From Azonexus sp. (GTDB taxonomy: Bacteria; Pseudomonadota; Gammaproteobacteria; Burkholderiales; Rhodocyclaceae), in the NCBI GenBank assembly GCA_031260295.1, contig JAIRKE010000054.1:80654-144653 (forward strand): 64,000 nt of DNA, written 5' to 3'. Each line of letters begins with the position of its first letter. Positions within the stretch are counted from its first letter, which is position 1. The notes below the pieces were generated by a model, which had not been told where the DNA came from, ran no database searches, and was given only the letters and a program-made list of their open reading frames with translations. A program made the translations under genes and the position numbers. This document shows, piece by piece, positions 57,107-64,000 of the stretch.

Positions 57107-57649
57107 ATGTCACTTGAATTTCGCGTCGCTGACCGGGCTGATGCCGGACAAATTGCCGCTCTCGTCAACAGCGCCTATCGTCCCACCACCCAGGATGCCG
57201 GCTGGACACACGAAGCGCACTTGGTCGCAGGCGATAGAATCACGGCCGAGCAAGTGCTTTCCCTGTTTGACCAGCAGTCCGCGATTCTGCTCCTGTGTGC
57301 CGCGGCAAAAATCGTGGCCTGCGTGCACGTCCAAGGCGACCAGCCGGGCACTGCTTACATTGGCATGCTGGCAACCGACCCCAAACGGCAAGCTCAAGGT
57401 CTTGGCAAGCAAATGCTTCGTCATGCCGAGGCGTATGCCACCGCGCATTTCGCGGCTATGACGCTCAATATGACGGTTCTGTCGTCGCGACCAGAACTCT
57501 TGGCCTTCTACGAGCGACGCGGTTACGCTCTAACCGGGGAGATCAAGGAATATCCATTGTCTGCCGAAATCGGGCGGCCCTTGGCTCCGGACATTCACCT
57601 ACTCGCGCTGGTAAAAACACCGCCTAAAACTTTGGCGTCAGGACTTTAG
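57107..57649 (+). CDS. GNAT-family N-acetyltransferase
   Basis: A 180-residue acetyltransferase. The acetyl-CoA motif A region is MLATDPKRQAQGLGKQMLRHAE, and FYERRGYALTG is motif B. The target is unknown. It starts 15 bases after the EAL gene. Its 3' end overlaps the recG stop by 12 bases in convergent orientation. Confidence 0.85.
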   Translation: MSLEFRVADRADAGQIAALVNSAYRPTTQDAGWTHEAHLVAGDRITAEQVLSLFDQQSAILLLCAAAKIVACVHVQGDQPGTAYIGMLATDPKRQAQGLGKQMLRHAEAYATAHFAAMTLNMTVLSSRPELLAFYERRGYALTGEIKEYPLSAEIGRPLAPDIHLLALVKTPPKTLASGL

Positions 57650-59689
57650 CAACTCCTCGCGCGCCCCGAGCCAGCGCCGCAGGTGCGCTGCGGCCAGGGT
57701 TGGATGGGCGTTGAGCATTTCCTCGGCAACGGTGCGCGCCAGTTCGACCAGCTCGGCGTCTTGCTCCAGGTCGGCGTAGCGCAACAGCGGCACGCCGCTC
57801 TGGCGGGCCCCGACGAACTCGCCTGGACCGCGCAACTGCAAATCCCGGCGGGCAATTTCGAAACCATCGCTGTGCTCGAAAATGATCTTCAGGCGCTGGC
57901 GGGCAACCTCGCCCAACGGCCCGGCATAGATCAGCACGCAGCTCGATTCGTACCGGCCGCGTCCGACCCGGCCGCGCAACTGGTGCAGTTGCGACAGGCC
58001 GAAGCGTTCGGCGTGCTCGATCACCATCAGGCTGGCATTGGGCACGTCTACGCCGACCTCGATCACCGTCGTCGCCACCAGCACATCGATGCCACCGGCG
58101 GCGAAAGCGACCATCACCGCCTGCTTGTCGCCAGCCTTGAGCCGGCCGTGCACCAGGCCGACGCGCAGGCCCGGCAACTCGGCCGCAAGCTGGGCGTAGG
58201 TTTCCTCGGCGGTCTGCAACTGCAAGGCCTCCGATTCCTCGATCAGCGGGCATACCCAATAGGCTTGGCGGCCCTCCTCGACATGCTTCCTAACAAAACC
58301 GACCACGTCGGCACGGCGGTTGTCGGCAACCAGCCGGGTCTTGATCGGGGTGCGTCCGGGCGGCAATTCGTCGAGCACGGTAACGTCGAGGTCGGCGTAA
58401 TAACTCATGGCCAGCGTGCGCGGGATCGGCGTTGCCGACATCATCAATTGGTGCGGATTCCCACCCTTCTTGCGCAGGGCCAGCCGCTGGGCGACACCAA
58501 AGCGGTGCTGCTCGTCGACGATGGCCAGGCCCAGGCGGGCGAAATCGACGCTGTCCTGGATCAGCGCATGGGTGCCGACCACCAGTTGCGCTTCGCCTGC
58601 CGCGGCCGCCAGTTGCTCCCGTTTAGCCTTGCTTTTCAGGCTGCCAGCCAGCCAAGCGACGCGCACGCCGAGCGGCTGCAGCCAGTCGCACAACTTCAGA
58701 TAGTGTTGCTCGGCGAGGATTTCGGTCGGCGCCATGAACGCCGCCTGCCAGCCGGCGGAAATCGCCTGGCAGGCGGCCAGCGCGGCGACGATGGTCTTGC
58801 CGGCCCCGACATCGCCCTGCAACAGGCGCTGCATCGGGTAGGGCTGGGCCAGATCGCCGCCGATCTCGGCCAGCGCCCGCGTCTGCGCCCCGGTCAAACC
58901 GAAGGGCAGGCTGTCGAGCAGGCGGGCGCCAAGATCGTCCCGCGCCCGCAGCACCGGCGCGCCTTGGTCACGGCGGGCGAGATAAGCGCGGCGCAGGGAA
59001 AGCTGCTGGGCCAGCACCTCATCGAACTTGATCCGCCGCCAGGCCGGGTGCTGGCGCGCCTGCAAGGCATCGCGGTCGGCATCCGGCGGCGGCATGTGGA
59101 GAAAGCGCAGGCTGCGCGCGAAACCGGCCAGTTTCAGGCGCTGGCGCAGTTCATCGGGCAGGGTGTCGGCCAGCGTGTTGGCTGATTCGGCCTCGGCCAG
59201 CGCCGCGCCGATCAGCTTCTGCAAAGTGCCATTGCCAACCCCGGCGGTCGTCGGATAAACCGGCGTCAAGGCCGCCGGCAGCGGCTCGCCTTCGGCGATT
59301 TTGCGCAAGCGCGGATGCACCATCTCCAGCCCGAAAAAGCCACCGCGCACTTCGCCAAAGACGCGGATGCGTGCGCCCTCGGCCAGCATCGCCTGTTGGC
59401 TCGGGTAAAAGCTGAAGAAGCGCAGCGTGATCTCGCCACTGGCATCGGCAGCGCGCACCACCAACTGCCGGCGCGGCCGAAACTGCACTTCGCTGTGCCG
59501 AACAGTCAGTTCCAACTGCACCGCCTCACCATTCAGGGCGCGCTCCACCGAGGTAAGGCACGTTTCGTCCTCGTAGCGCAGCGGCAGGTGTAGCAGCAAA
59601 TCGGCCTCGCTGTGGAGGCCGATCTTGGCGAGTTTCTTGCGCAGCGCCTCAGCGGCGCGGATCGGGGCTGGCGCTCCGCCCGTTTCCAT
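57638..59689 (-). CDS. recG: ATP-dependent DNA helicase RecG
   Basis: Unwinds branched DNA such as stalled replication forks. The 683-residue protein has the N-terminal wedge/OB region, Walker A GDVGAGKTIVA, motif II DEQH (IVDEQHRFG), SATPIPRTLAMS and the VI motif HQLRGRVGRG. It is the last chromosomal gene before the mobile element. recG neighbours are not usual integration sites, so the boundary beyond it may be elsewhere. Confidence 0.95.
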   Translation of the reverse strand: METGGAPAPIRAAEALRKKLAKIGLHSEADLLLHLPLRYEDETCLTSVERALNGEAVQLELTVRHSEVQFRPRRQLVVRAADASGEITLRFFSFYPSQQAMLAEGARIRVFGEVRGGFFGLEMVHPRLRKIAEGEPLPAALTPVYPTTAGVGNGTLQKLIGAALAEAESANTLADTLPDELRQRLKLAGFARSLRFLHMPPPDADRDALQARQHPAWRRIKFDEVLAQQLSLRRAYLARRDQGAPVLRARDDLGARLLDSLPFGLTGAQTRALAEIGGDLAQPYPMQRLLQGDVGAGKTIVAALAACQAISAGWQAAFMAPTEILAEQHYLKLCDWLQPLGVRVAWLAGSLKSKAKREQLAAAAGEAQLVVGTHALIQDSVDFARLGLAIVDEQHRFGVAQRLALRKKGGNPHQLMMSATPIPRTLAMSYYADLDVTVLDELPPGRTPIKTRLVADNRRADVVGFVRKHVEEGRQAYWVCPLIEESEALQLQTAEETYAQLAAELPGLRVGLVHGRLKAGDKQAVMVAFAAGGIDVLVATTVIEVGVDVPNASLMVIEHAERFGLSQLHQLRGRVGRGRYESSCVLIYAGPLGEVARQRLKIIFEHSDGFEIARRDLQLRGPGEFVGARQSGVPLLRYADLEQDAELVELARTVAEEMLNAHPTLAAAHLRRWLGAREELLKS

Positions 59690-59952
59690 CGCCTAAATTG
59701 ACCGGCACGCCCGCCAGGGCGCGTCCGGGTTGAATGCAATGTTGCACCTGCACGGCTCCCAAGCGGTTGTTTTGGATCGCATTTTTCCTGGTTTTGAGGC
59801 GGTGCCTAACCCGAAAAGTGGTGCCCCAATGTGGGACACCTTCGGGGCGGATCGTACCACTTGACGGCCAAGCCGTCCGAGGCGAACGCCAGAAACGGAT
59901 TCCCGACGAAAACGGGAAAACTTGACTTGGCACACTTTTCGTTCTGTTTGTA
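59690..59952. other. Non-coding junction region between recG and element
   Basis: A 263-base stretch without a convincing gene. It contains the recG promoter area. GTGCCCCA and TGGGACAC form a short dyad near 59821. The phrase GTACCACTT recurs at about 59865 and 59951. No tRNA gene or clear direct repeat marks the junction. Confidence 0.4.
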
Positions 59953-59991
59953 CCACTTACTTGGACGCCTAATGGGCGTCCAAGTAAGTGG
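59953..59991. repeat. Perfect 17-base inverted repeat upstream of recombinase
   Basis: CCACTTACTTGGACGCC (59953-59969) is inverted perfectly at 59975-59991 across the five-base loop TAATG. It may be a terminator-like hairpin, a recombination core or an operator for the recombinase. The T-run is lacking. Confidence 0.7.
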
Positions 59992-59997
59992 GGCGGC

Positions 59998-60072
59998 ATC
60001 CGTTTGGCATTTGTTTTTCCCTCTCATTCAACTGTCGTTGAATTTTGAGGAAAAAACAAATGCCAAACGGAT
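59998..60072. repeat. Nested 75-base inverted repeat over the recombinase start
   Basis: The outer arms are 59998-60020 and 60049-60072, each opening or closing with the sequence ATCCGTTTGGCATTTG and its complement, with one extra A in the right arm. The inner hairpin is ATTCAAC-TGTC-GTTGAAT (60026-60043). The ribosome-binding GAGG and the ATG at 60060 lie within the right arm, so the folded RNA would block translation. Confidence 0.7.
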
Positions 60073-61094
60073 ATCGAAGACCCGTAGCGAAGCGGAGTGG
60101 TCGTAGAAGCCCCACGGCGGTTTTAGAAGGCACAACGATGACATCAGACAAGGCGGCAGCAAGGGAAAGGGTGCAACGGTCGAGTAACAAGCCCAAGACA
60201 ACAAAATCCTACGTCAGCCTGACCAAACACCATTTGGATCGGATGACGAATCAGGGATTGAAGATCACGGCCAAAGGGATTGCGGATTACATGAAGCAAT
60301 TGGCGTATTCGGGGGAATTGACCAAATCGAGTTGGTACAAGTTGCGGTGTGCCTTGGCATCGACGCAGGAATTGGGTGGGTTCAAGGATTCGGCGGAACG
60401 GTTGCGGGCGTTGAAGTTTCCCACGGACGCCAAACCGAAGCCCCGTCCCCGTCGGGCCAAAGGTATCGACGGGGACGATTACGCCACGCTGCATCGGGAG
60501 TTGGCGGAAAAGGGGGACTCTGTGGCTTGGGCGTACCTGGTGTTGGCTCGGCATTTGGGCTGTCGCCCTGCCGAAGTAATCAACATCGCGGGAGAGATCG
60601 ACGGCAACGCCACGTATTTCATCCCATCGGCAAAAAAACGGGCGGACGGTCGGGGGCTGGATCGGTTTGTGGAAATCACAGACCAACGGGCGTTGGCTGA
60701 GGTGCGCAGGGCGTTTAGCATCGTCCAAAAAGTGCCTGCTACACAACGGAAGAACCTGCATAACGTCGCGCGAAAACGAATCGCACGGACGGCGGCGGGG
60801 TTGTGGCCACGCCGGGCCGTGTTGCCGACCCTATACACGTTGCGGCATCAGATGGGGTCGGATTTGAAGGCGTCGGGAATGAGTGAGGTGGAATGTGCGG
60901 CCATCATGGGCCACCAATCGACCCGAAGCATCGGGGTATATGGATGGGCCAGGGCGGGGCGTGGTGCCGTCTCGGTGCGTCCGACGAGGGAGACCTTGGC
61001 CAGGGTACGCAAAATTGATCCGCGTGGCTCTGTGCCCGTTAAAACGCCCTTGGCGGGGGTGAAACCTCGTGGGCTTCGTCCAAATGATTCTTGA
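60060..61094 (+). CDS. Tyrosine recombinase-like integrase
   Basis: A 344-residue protein from ATG 60060 after GAGG. Tyrosine-recombinase residues are visible: Arg in RHLGCRPAEVINIAGE, LRH in YTLRHQMGSDL, GHQSTRS, and the probable nucleophile Tyr in RSIGVYGWAR. The first His of HxxR is replaced by Tyr, as in some element-encoded enzymes. The N-terminal 100 residues form a SAM-like DNA-binding region. It lies at the element end next to recG. Its start codon is inside a nested inverted repeat. It could integrate the element or resolve plasmid multimers. Confidence 0.75.
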   Translation: MPNGYRRPVAKRSGRRSPTAVLEGTTMTSDKAAARERVQRSSNKPKTTKSYVSLTKHHLDRMTNQGLKITAKGIADYMKQLAYSGELTKSSWYKLRCALASTQELGGFKDSAERLRALKFPTDAKPKPRPRRAKGIDGDDYATLHRELAEKGDSVAWAYLVLARHLGCRPAEVINIAGEIDGNATYFIPSAKKRADGRGLDRFVEITDQRALAEVRRAFSIVQKVPATQRKNLHNVARKRIARTAAGLWPRRAVLPTLYTLRHQMGSDLKASGMSEVECAAIMGHQSTRSIGVYGWARAGRGAVSVRPTRETLARVRKIDPRGSVPVKTPLAGVKPRGLRPNDS

Positions 61095-61182
61095 CGTGGT
61101 ATTGGGGGCTTCGCGCCCCCAAACCCCTGTCTTGAATGGGCCTTTCCTGCAGTCCCCCCCAAAAGGTCCGGGAGGGGGGACG

Positions 61183-61267
61183 GGGGGGCAAAGCCCCCCG
61201 GAAAACGGGGTTTTGGGGTTTGGGGTTTTTTGAGCGTAAGCGACCACCGCCCGCCCCCTGGGGGGCG
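61183..61267. repeat. G/C-skewed zone with hairpins and GGGGTTTT repeats
   Basis: A 7-base stem GGGGGGC-AAA-GCCCCCC is at 61183-61199. GGGG-TTTT-GGGG-TTT-GGGG occupies 61207-61225. A second hairpin, CGCCCC and GGGGCG, is near 61252-61267. The strand asymmetry is strong, with C-runs before and G-runs after. It lies between the recombinase and the iterons in a 443-base gap without a gene, and may be part of the replication or transfer origin. Confidence 0.45.
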
Positions 61268-61371
61268 AGGCGGAAGGGGGGCATCTTAAAATCTTTTTAA
61301 AACCTTTTTTTGCCTTTTAAAAACCTTATAGGCCCGGCAAACCCGCATGAATACTAGGTTTTTTGGGGGGT

Positions 61372-61448
61372 ATTCACCTCAAAACCGGGGTGCATTCACC
61401 TCAAAACCGGGGTTAAAACACCTCAAAAATGGGGAACCTCACCTCAAC
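61372..61448 (+). repeat. Iteron-like repeats, probable replication origin
   Basis: ATTCACCTCAAAACCGGGGT at 61372-61391 is repeated exactly at 61394-61413, a 22-base period equal to two helical turns. A degenerate third copy is at 61416-61435 (15 of 20 identical) and a partial one begins at 61440. An inverted half-copy is near 61470 (GGGGTGAA). They lie about 90-165 bases before the Rep gene, as in iteron-controlled plasmids. AT-rich sequence precedes them. A TTATCCATT at 61511 is a weak DnaA-box-like match. Confidence 0.75.
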
Positions 61449-61537
61449 AAAGAAAAAATTCGCCAATTGGGGTGAAAACTTGACAAGGATTTTCTGATTG
61501 CTAGATTGAGTTATCCATTTATTTTGAAGACCACTCA

Positions 61538-62398
61538 ATGAAAAAAAATAGCAGCATTACCAAGCCTGACGCCATTGACGTTACCCGCTGGGACGGCGGA
61601 AGCGTGATTATGTCCAACGCCCTGAGTGCGGGCGTGCATAGGCTGAATCTTGAAGGCAAGCAGTCGCTTTGCCTGGCTATGGCCCAAATCGACGCCGGGA
61701 AAGCTACCACCGACGATAGGGGGGCATTGTGCGTGGAATTTATCGCGCAGGAATTCCACGAGTATTACCCTGTGTCAGAACATCACGTTTACGAACGAAT
61801 GAAAGACGGCGTTGACAACATTTTGAAAGCTAAAGTTTCCTTCATGGACGGCAATGAAAAAGTGCATTGGCCGTGGGTGATGGAAGCTCGATACATTGAT
61901 GGGGAAGGGCGGATTGCGATCGAGTTCAATCCCAAGCTCACCCCGCACATCACACGTGAAATGTCAAAAATGGGAGGATACACCCTCTACAAACTCAAAG
62001 CCGTTTCACCGCTTTCGTTTTACCCGTGGAAAATTTACGAAATTCTTAGCCAATACAGATCGACGGGATGGCATGAAATGGAATTGGACGATCTGCACGA
62101 ACGGCTCGGAACACCGCCCACATATCGCAAAGACTTTTTTAAATTCAAAGAAAAAGTGTTGAATAATGCGGCTAAAGAGTTGTTGGAAAAATCAAAAGTA
62201 GCGCTGACGTTTGAAGCGATCCGCACGTATGGCAGGCGGTACAAAAAAATCAAATTCACTTTCCAGGACGTTTTCACCGCACAAGAAGAAGCCGAAAAAG
62301 CCATCAAGCAAGCACAGACACAGGCAATACAGCCTATCAATAACGTTGCCCCCCCGCCCGCCAAAAACGGCAAGCGTGAGGCTATCGCGTGGCTATAA
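61538..62398 (+). CDS. Replication initiator protein, Rep_3 (RepB/RepE) type
   Basis: A 286-residue plasmid initiator of the Rep_3 superfamily, which binds iterons to start replication. Opening VIMSNALSAG and later LSFYPWKIYEILSQYRSTGWHEMELDDL and YRKDFFKFKEKVL match the two winged-helix arrangement of RepE/RepA members. The coding sequence is AT-richer and has codon choices unlike the chromosome. It is preceded by iterons, indicating a plasmid origin for the region. Its C-terminal tail (IKQAQTQAIQPINN) is low in complexity. Confidence 0.85.
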   Translation: MKKNSSITKPDAIDVTRWDGGSVIMSNALSAGVHRLNLEGKQSLCLAMAQIDAGKATTDDRGALCVEFIAQEFHEYYPVSEHHVYERMKDGVDNILKAKVSFMDGNEKVHWPWVMEARYIDGEGRIAIEFNPKLTPHITREMSKMGGYTLYKLKAVSPLSFYPWKIYEILSQYRSTGWHEMELDDLHERLGTPPTYRKDFFKFKEKVLNNAAKELLEKSKVALTFEAIRTYGRRYKKIKFTFQDVFTAQEEAEKAIKQAQTQAIQPINNVAPPPAKNGKREAIAWL

Positions 62399-62449
62399 CG
62401 TGTTTTTTCGGATAGAGTCGGCTGAAGCCACACCAGAAAGGAAATTACC

Positions 62450-62710
62450 ATGCCCCGCAAACGCACCGTACCCAAAGATGTCGCCGAATGGCAAAAAGAA
62501 ACTGAGCGAGAAATGAGCTATGAGGAATACCTTTTGGGCGGGTACTCACTCAAACCTCAAGAGGATATGAAAATGTTTAGGGAGGTGGAGGAACAGGCTC
62601 GGGCGAATTTGCGCCCAGGCGAAACCCTGCCCGAAGATTGGCTTGGTGTGGTGGAGGTGTCGTTGCGAGATCCGAATCCTCGCTTTTTGCAAACATTCTT
62701 CCAGAGTTGA
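62450..62710 (+). CDS. Small unknown element-encoded protein
   Basis: An 86-residue acidic-helical protein beginning MPRKRTVPKD after a good AAAGGAAA site, 51 bases behind rep. YEEYLLGGYSL and DWLGVVEVSL are its only notable hydrophobic patches. No membrane segment or known family is recognised. It may be a plasmid copy-number or anti-restriction-type accessory, but nothing supports a choice. Confidence 0.55.
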   Translation: MPRKRTVPKDVAEWQKETEREMSYEEYLLGGYSLKPQEDMKMFREVEEQARANLRPGETLPEDWLGVVEVSLRDPNPRFLQTFFQS

Positions 62711-62774
62711 CAGCGACAGCAATAACCGGTTGAATGGTTTTGTGTTTCAGCCACGACGCAGGCAAAAAACACCG

Positions 62775-62802
62775 CCCCACCTGATGACAAGACCAGGTGG
62801 GG
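62775..62802 (+). terminator. Terminator downstream of the small element gene
   Basis: CCCCACCTG (62775-62783) pairs with CAGGTGGGG (62794-62802) across ten bases and is followed by a TACCTTATTTTC tail. It ends the rep transcript and isolates the repeat that follows. Confidence 0.75.
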
Positions 62803-62814
62803 TACCTTATTTTC

Positions 62815-62842
62815 GTTTACCGCCGTGTAGGCGGTTTAGAAA
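62815..62842 (+). repeat. Solitary type I-F-like CRISPR repeat unit
   Basis: Exactly 28 bases, the I-F repeat length. It opens GTTTA, has the stem CCGCC with loop GTGTA and closing GGCGG, and ends TTTAGAAA. Published I-F repeats have the same layout (GTTCA, stem CTGCC/GGCAG, then TAAGAAA or TTAGAAA). The stem differs by a compensatory C-G for T-A pair, so the Cas6f hairpin is preserved. There is no second copy within the window and no cas gene. It lies 13 bases after the terminator and 43 before the traY-like start. RNA anti-CRISPRs built from solitary repeats are known on phages and plasmids; that function here is inference. Confidence 0.6.
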
Positions 62843-62885
62843 ACTTGTTTCGTAATTTAAAAAGAATTACTTGCGAGTTCTTTTT

Positions 62886-64000
62886 ATGCGTCGCTTTCCA
62901 TTTTTCGCTTTTGCCCTTTCCCTTGCCCTGTTCTTTCCCGCCTTGGCGTTCGCCGAAGCCGCAGGAACGGGGTTTATGCACGTCGTCGATACCGATGTCA
63001 CGGTGGGTTGTTTCCTGAATCCGCTGTTTGGCTCACTGGTCGATATGCCGGGGGCCGTGTGTGCCCACGGAGGCGGTTCTGGCGACCCGATGAGTGGCAT
63101 CATTGGGCAACTCAACACCGCGATTCTGATCGTCGGCGGGGTGTTGCTGTCCTATGGCTTGATTGTCGGCACGATGCAGACCGCCCACGACGGCGAACTG
63201 CTCGGCAAGCGCTGGTCGTCAATGTGGGTGCCGATTCGGACGTCTGTGGGCACCGCCTTTATTGTGCCGCTGGGCCAAGGCTACTGCGTCATCCAATACC
63301 TTGTGATGTGGATGGTGCTTCAAGGCATTGGCGCGGCAAACCTCATCTGGGGCGAATACGCCACCCACACGGCGGACACCCTGCCGCCCATGTCGGCCAT
63401 GATTGGCACCGCCAAAGGCAACCAGATCGGCGTCACGGTGTTACGCCAGGAATTGTGTGCGGCCGTCCTTAACGGGGAAGTGGAAAAAGCCAAAAAAGAC
63501 CCCACGATGAAACAAGCCATTCTCACGTACCTTGGGGACGAATGGCCCACGTTCGCCATCAAAACCGTCGATTCAGAGGCCGAGCTGGATACCAACGACA
63601 AAGTGTGTGGCGTCAACAAATTTGTTGACCTTAACAAAACGAAGGATCCTTCTCTTTCCACCGAGTTCATAGGGGCCGTCGTCACCGGTTCCAACCTGCC
63701 CGCCCGTATCCAATCGTGGTTTGGCAACGCTCAGGCGGCCCAAGAATTCCAAGCCGCCATCGATGCAGAGCACCAAGCCGCCTTGGTTAAGCTGCAGGGC
63801 AAATTGCGTCCCATTGCCCAAGCCATTTACGCCAGCGCCGACGAAAAAAGCACTGCCAATTTTCAGCAGCAAATCGGCGCCGCCATCGACGCCTACAACC
63901 AACAACTGGCGGCCAAGGCCAAAGCCTTTTTTGACGCCACCAACAACCCCAGCGCCGTGGCCCAAAACGCCACCAAAGACGGCTGGGGTTCGGCGGGGGC
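62886..64000 (+). CDS. traY: DotA/TraY-family conjugal transfer protein, C-terminus outside window
   Basis: The first 371 codons of a large inner-membrane protein of type IVB (I-type) secretion systems. The start at 62886 gives MRRFPFFAFA, a signal-peptide-like leader ending near FAEAAG. A membrane segment around 76-95 (LNTAILIVGGVLLSYGLIVG) is followed by the family motif GKRWSSMWVPIRTSVGTAF, then another segment and GYCVIQYLVMW. A soluble helical and Ala/Gln-rich region follows from about 180. The frame is open to the window end. It implies a conjugative element of IncI/Dot-Icm relation. The symbol follows the IncI nomenclature. Confidence 0.8.
   Translation, partial: MRRFPFFAFALSLALFFPALAFAEAAGTGFMHVVDTDVTVGCFLNPLFGSLVDMPGAVCAHGGGSGDPMSGIIGQLNTAILIVGGVLLSYGLIVGTMQTAHDGELLGKRWSSMWVPIRTSVGTAFIVPLGQGYCVIQYLVMWMVLQGIGAANLIWGEYATHTADTLPPMSAMIGTAKGNQIGVTVLRQELCAAVLNGEVEKAKKDPTMKQAILTYLGDEWPTFAIKTVDSEAELDTNDKVCGVNKFVDLNKTKDPSLSTEFIGAVVTGSNLPARIQSWFGNAQAAQEFQAAIDAEHQAALVKLQGKLRPIAQAIYASADEKSTANFQQQIGAAIDAYNQQLAAKAKAFFDATNNPSAVAQNATKDGWGSAG

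Follow-up and report, generated by a model that had tools for sequence, protein, structure and literature searches.

A solitary type I-F CRISPR repeat in front of the traY gene of a putatively integrated element in Azonexus sp., a candidate RNA anti-CRISPR

The question raised by this locus is why a single CRISPR repeat should stand shortly before a gene of conjugal transfer. In the window, by which we mean the whole stretch of 64,000 nucleotides analysed here, the 28-base unit GTTTACCGCCGTGTAGGCGGTTTAGAAA is found 43 nt 5' of the start of a DotA/TraY gene (Table 1); the window forms the terminal part of contig C25 (144,653 bases), which belongs to a 97% complete genome bin of 2.94 Mb in 74 contigs. 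The sequence-only reading of this DNA had seen in the unit an isolated I-F-like repeat and a candidate RNA anti-CRISPR of the Racr kind. RNA decoys of this kind are already known from phages and plasmids, and the published account of solitary repeat units (Camara-Wilpert et al. 2023, PMC10651486) lists 2,103 of them on viral sequences and 90 on plasmids, to which the present unit adds one candidate. Taken together, the data lead us to favour, with a probability of roughly 0.55, a Racr-like decoy against type I-F systems placed in the traY leader.

Table 1. Features of the window around the repeat unit.
Feature	Position in window	Strand	Basis
recG	57638-59689	-	upstream of integrase-like gene
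Integrase-like tyrosine recombinase, weak	60045..61094	+	PHROG 1 integrase, E 1.1e-8; sub-cut-off in Pfam and NCBIfam
Rep_3 replication initiator	61538..62398	+	Pfam Rep3_N and Rep3_C above cut-off
86-aa ORF	62450..62710	+	no family match
Promoter-like site TTGACA-17-TTGAAT, possible source of leader RNA	62707..62735	+	score 11.7
Leader hairpin 1	62742..62772	+	fold; sequence conserved in sister element
Leader hairpin 2, terminator-like on minus strand	62775..62802	+	terminator scan, fold; in sister, stem identical and loop changed
Solitary type I-F CRISPR repeat, candidate Racr	62815..62842	+	Rfam CRISPR-DR4, 37 bits; single copy in bin
Repeat hairpin CCGCC-GTGTA-GGCGG; Cas6f cut expected after 62834	62820..62834	+	fold -11.2 kcal/mol; cut by analogy with PMC10651486
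A+T-rich hairpin just 5' of traY start	62858..62886	+	fold; paired letters co-changed in sister element
DotA/TraY gene, truncated by contig end	62886..63998	+	NCBIfam TIGR04346, 173.8 bits, cut-off 100

The unit is a real type I-F CRISPR repeat. When an I-F-like pattern was searched at up to 3 mismatches, the unit was the sole match in the window and none of 100 shuffles gave one. The Rfam family CRISPR-DR4 (RF01317) covers all 28 positions, above its gathering cut-off of 35 bits (E 5.4e-6 for 4 kb against 4227 families), the name of this family describing array repeats whereas the unit of the window is single. The sequence-only reading had pointed to an I-F repeat length, a 5' GTTTA, an intact stem and a 3' GAAA, and these are borne out by the full-length Rfam match and by the fold: the five-pair stem, the loop and the 8-nt 3' handle ending in GAAA are the architecture of a type I-F repeat, all five stem pairs are retained with an A-U pair beneath them, and equally stable folds were obtained for 2 of 200 shuffles (z -3.17). 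The paired substitution that it had described as preserving the hairpin is a change from T-A to C-G, which is also found in many I-F arrays.

An exact copy of the 28-mer is present in three stretches, all from Gilliamella, in the genome_contigs collection. Two exact repeats and a degenerate one are present in the first (L007), and in another (L008) the exact 28-mer lies 1.6 kb from an eight-repeat array, with a degenerate repeat after it. In Gilliamella sp. WF3-4 (L009:5863-5960) a full repeat is followed by a 32-nt spacer and by a second repeat consisting of the hairpin part only, the whole being apart from any array within its 8-kb stretch. At up to 3 mismatches, the unit was found in none of 75 other genomes of the genus, in 2 of 398 others of the order (G352 with 52 matches, the best 26/28, and G370 with 11 matches, 25/28) and in 1 of 368 others of the class (G584, 18 matches, 25/28), these draws of genomes overlapping by a few. 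Of those matches that were inspected, most lie within arrays, one match of G352 being outside. Among 60 genomes searched, Cas6f was detected in 4 of the 35 other genomes of the genus, and the I-F array repeats of these four reach only 18-19/28 with the unit. In the alignment to I-F repeats suggested earlier as a check, a close resemblance is seen in the order-mate G352 (up to 26/28) and a lower one in the arrays of the genus.

In G352 the arrays with the CCGCC/GGCGG stem adjoin I-F cas genes (with NCBIfam, Cas3f and Csy3 above cut-off, Csy2 and Csy4 below; with Pfam, Csy4 above cut-off), and arrays with this stem also adjoin I-F cas genes on plasmids of Methylomonas, Allochromatium and Acetobacter. 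On the viral-collection contig L058 one array grades from CTGCC/GGCAG to CCGCC/GGCGG repeats next to Csy3 and Csy4 (Cas6f) genes; since this array mixes both stems beside one Cas6f gene, a single Cas6f probably accepts both. An I-F-like array of 12 repeats is present on contig C2 of G370 (L066), a genome 99% complete in which a Pfam search for Cas6f gave no match. Outside the arrays of G352, a full repeat (C274:26654-26681, L064:4655-4682; 26/28 to the unit) stands between cas3f and csy1 of the I-F locus, 5.4 kb from the array of the locus, and is followed by a spacer-length stretch, a partial repeat with the same hairpin and a terminator-like hairpin. This layout is perhaps that of a stand-alone crRNA-like gene, CreA-like or self-regulating.

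Partial matches to the unit were obtained in 11 plasmid records, four of which were inspected (Thauera, Methylomonas, Allochromatium and Acetobacter), and an 18-nt match in two phage records; among viral contigs, exact variants were found in no stretch with a narrow pattern and in three with a wider one. On the Thauera plasmid pTha01 (L022:8162-8249), two I-F-like repeats enclose a 32-nt spacer, the first half of which, GTTCACACGTGTGAAC, is a perfect palindrome, and no cas gene is found among the 21 listed features around them. The viral contig IMGVR_UViG_3300045115_000091 carries a solitary I-F-like repeat (L060:5550-5577, minus strand), with the ATG of a small ORF following it after 13 nt. 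A DNA search of plasmids for close homologs of the locus of the window gave no match, and the exact leader sequence was absent from the viral contigs. Distant traY relatives, besides the two copies of the bin, were present in 1 of 75 other genomes of the genus and 8 of 249 others of the order, and at ten loci with such relatives (L011-L018, L020, L061) there is no I-F-like unit at up to 5 mismatches.

The second copy said to be missing is indeed missing at the scale of the whole bin, where the unit occurs once at up to 3 mismatches; an array of the unit elsewhere in the bin was rejected on this count. Neither does a multi-repeat array adjoin the unit, the best ungapped same-strand matches in its 100-nt flanks being 13/28 and 11/28. 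Over the 250 nt upstream the best match on either strand is 14/28, and over the 1158 nt downstream the two strands give 16/28 (same) and 17/28 (opposite), against a mean of 15.0 and a maximum of 18 for 200 one-strand shuffles of this downstream stretch. No remnant of a spacer or of a second repeat was found in the flanks, and the unit does not pass as a mini-array, for which at least two repeats and a spacer are needed. The SRUFinder rules, as far as they are set out in PMC10651486, were applied by hand: identity and coverage reach the threshold of at least 90% with the array repeats of Gilliamella (28/28) and of G352 (26/28), the 100-nt flanks hold no partial repeat, and the unit is intergenic, between the 86-aa ORF and traY. 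Short ORFs from a mechanical list span the unit.

The contig ends at base 64000 of the window, inside traY, and the transfer operon is visible only to there. The window traY was matched by 304 plasmid records, every one below 60% identity. The position claimed earlier, on a transmissible element and before a traY-like gene, agrees with the TIGR04346 match and with the integrase-like and Rep_3 genes upstream; judged from these genes, the element appears to be integrated and plasmid-like and to encode part of a type IVB conjugation system, if not all of it; it is likely conjugative. Between recG and the integrase-like gene lie two neighbouring inverted repeats (59953-59991 and 59998-60072), with opposite-strand self-matches of 92% over 39 and of 84% over 76; they may mark the end of the element. 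Beside recG, the stretch 59742-59860 is 75% identical, in opposite orientation, to L021:4401-4518, which is the DNA just past the relaxase gene of a sister element on contig C64 of the same bin, and the two are perhaps element ends. The sequence at the contig end recurs in the bin at the ends of C25 and C64 only. A plasmid protein with a sub-cut-off TraG/TraD match returned nothing when searched against the bin, a result of little weight for a search with no positive control.

Contig C64 ends at the same point of its traY, and the two proteins are 92% identical; the values of dN (0.054) and dS (0.206) would fit purifying selection. Its neighbouring genes encode a RepL-like protein (below the Pfam cut-off), a TM2 protein and a MobA/MobL relaxase. 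The two leaders have in common the TTGACA site, hairpins 1 and 2 and the last 41 nt before traY, and in the hairpin before the start the two copies differ by AA/TT versus GG/CC. Between hairpin 2 and the final 41-nt stretch, the window has the unit and C64 has 57 nt of other DNA, and an intact unit is absent from the sister element. In the first 2.2 kb of C64, on the traY strand, the best match to the unit (18/28) is located exactly at the site of the unit; a score of 18 came up in 0.1% of 5000 shuffles of the region, and with the T-tract part omitted the observed value was attained in 0.12%. This match is notable by its position only, for which the test was devised after the match had been seen, as a 17/28 match lies elsewhere on the opposite strand of the same 2.2 kb and a value of 18 was also obtained from shuffles of 1.2 kb. 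Two of the five stem pairs would be broken in it, its fold is weak (-3.3 kcal/mol) and the Rfam scan does not recognise it; it is possibly, on weak evidence, a decayed repeat.

The promoter-like site lies at the homologous place in both elements. On an approximate scoring matrix the window site barely exceeds the 95th percentile of shuffles (10.85), and the site of the sister scores 13.4; a stricter consensus promoter scan does not include the window site among its calls. The unit had also been placed right after a terminator. A hairpin does precede it, but a terminator on the relevant strand is doubtful, because hairpin 2 scores as such on the minus strand only and, on the plus strand, TACC separates its stem from an interrupted T-tract. 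The call on the minus strand alone makes read-through into the unit and traY plausible, and hairpin 2 need not halt transcripts running toward the unit, as judged from its sequence.

No Cas6f was found in the bin. The earlier claim that cas genes are lacking holds to this extent, and it does not hold for other types, as the bin has two Cas1 loci, one adjoining Cas9 and one adjoining Csx1-like genes, and the array at each is built of an unlike repeat. An I-F3 CRISPR-associated transposon would have Tn7-like tns and tniQ genes with cas6-cas7-cas8/5 close by; of these, Cas6f was sought in the bin and is lacking. Since a bin that is 97% complete has no I-F system, any benefit of the unit would fall in other recipients. 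A total of 415 spacers (233 from the four I-F genomes of the genus, 162 from other arrays and 20 from the bin's own arrays) gave no convincing match to window positions 59691-64000 or to the initial 4.6 kb of C64; the closest had 8 mismatches, against 9, 7 and 9 for three sets of shuffled spacers. The flank rule for type I-F targets is CC. In a run with 250 spacers, a core of 19 nt of one genus spacer matched the C64 relaxase gene perfectly; this spacer was discounted, having 9 mismatches over its 32 nt and no CC flank.

If the unit is a decoy, a transcript begun at the promoter-like site would cover both leader hairpins and the unit and continue into traY. Where the recipient has a type I-F system, Cas6f would bind the hairpin of the unit and cut it at the expected place. 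The piece upstream of the cut, of about 93 nt if the RNA starts near 62742 as predicted and ends at 62834, would keep Cas6f bound and allow polymerisation of Cas7f in the absence of a 5' handle, Cas proteins being diverted from real crRNAs while the element becomes established. We infer here the use of the promoter, the read-through at hairpin 2, the binding and processing by Cas6f and the benefit for protection or transfer. RacrIF1 is described as needing C6 and G20, and as acting through products of about 70 and 76 nt from the upstream side of the Cas6f cut (PMC10651486); both bases are present in the unit. The decoy is supported by the Rfam match, the single copy, the lack of Cas6f in the bin, the five conserved stem pairs, the arrays with the CCGCC/GGCGG stem beside I-F cas genes, the presence of C6 and G20, the promoter-like site at a homologous place in both elements and the agreement with the SRUFinder rules. 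Against it count the modest promoter score, the sister element without an intact unit, the absence of convincing spacer targeting and the lack of an I-F-like unit at the ten distant traY loci. The strong fold of the upstream 93-nt RNA, with its two hairpins, may also hinder a Cas7f filament, and the 18-19/28 match in the genus together with the missing I-F system of the bin argue against a simple mimic of a host repeat.

The main rival, which we regard as possible, is a relic: the two repeats of a mini-array on the element would have recombined with each other, so that a single repeat without present function remains. Two-repeat units with nearly the same repeat and no array do exist on pTha01 and in Gilliamella L009, and a sister element without an intact unit and a host without an I-F system would be in agreement with such a loss. 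However, the unit is intact and matches the repeats of working-looking arrays, its flanks are free of remnants, and 3' of it follows traY leader DNA common to both elements; an intact sequence and clean flanks argue against an old relic, not against a recent one. It is unlikely that the unit chiefly controls the expression of traY, with or without cutting by Cas6f: it does belong to a leader of several hairpins close to the gene, but the traY leader of the sister has no such hairpin, and a complete I-F repeat including the handle would be unnecessary for this role. A combination of roles seems improbable as well, in which the Cas6f cut would both free a Cas6f/Cas7f decoy and leave on the transfer mRNA a 5' handle like that of a crRNA. 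Under this reading each transfer transcript would soak up Cas proteins, tra expression would sense CRISPR immunity, and the sister element could be protected in trans. Very unlikely is a crRNA-like guide, from a mini-array or CreA-like, made of the handle and the next 32 nt: the 8-nt handle is there, and G352 and Gilliamella L009 have units in which a full repeat is followed by a stretch of spacer length and another hairpin, but the bases after the unit are traY leader, largely common to the sister, and no second I-F hairpin lies downstream. A chance hairpin resembling a repeat was rejected on the Rfam score (E 5.4e-6) and the 28/28 identity to the Gilliamella repeats.

If the Racr-like decoy works, an integrated element resembling type IVB conjugation systems would join the known carriers of RNA anti-CRISPRs, and a place in the leader of one transfer gene would be sensible for an early-acting anti-defence factor. 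A literature search of titles and abstracts found no description of a repeat unit in a tra leader. The sister pair of the bin, one of which has the intact unit and one of which does not, would form a natural test pair for the benefit of the unit, and with its position before traY this makes the locus a useful test case, not a new kind of system. As described for RacrIF1 and solitary repeat units (PMC10651486), the unit is a single I-F repeat with an intact Cas6f hairpin, intergenic, on a mobile element and free of I-F cas genes. In contrast to the unit, RacrIF1 is prophage-borne, and its promoter, RNA and inhibition are demonstrated in that study, whereas the unit precedes traY on an integrated element of conjugation type and is known from sequence alone. 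Plasmid pTha01 of Thauera aminoaromatica (NC_011667), also from the Rhodocyclales, shares the CCGCC/GGCGG stem and the GTGTA loop (25/28) but has two repeats and a partly palindromic 32-nt spacer. The repeat of IMGVR_UViG_3300045115_000091 is more distant (23/28) and lies on a phage-like contig, but like the unit of the window it is single, has the CCGCC/GGCGG stem and precedes a coding frame, in its case a small ORF.
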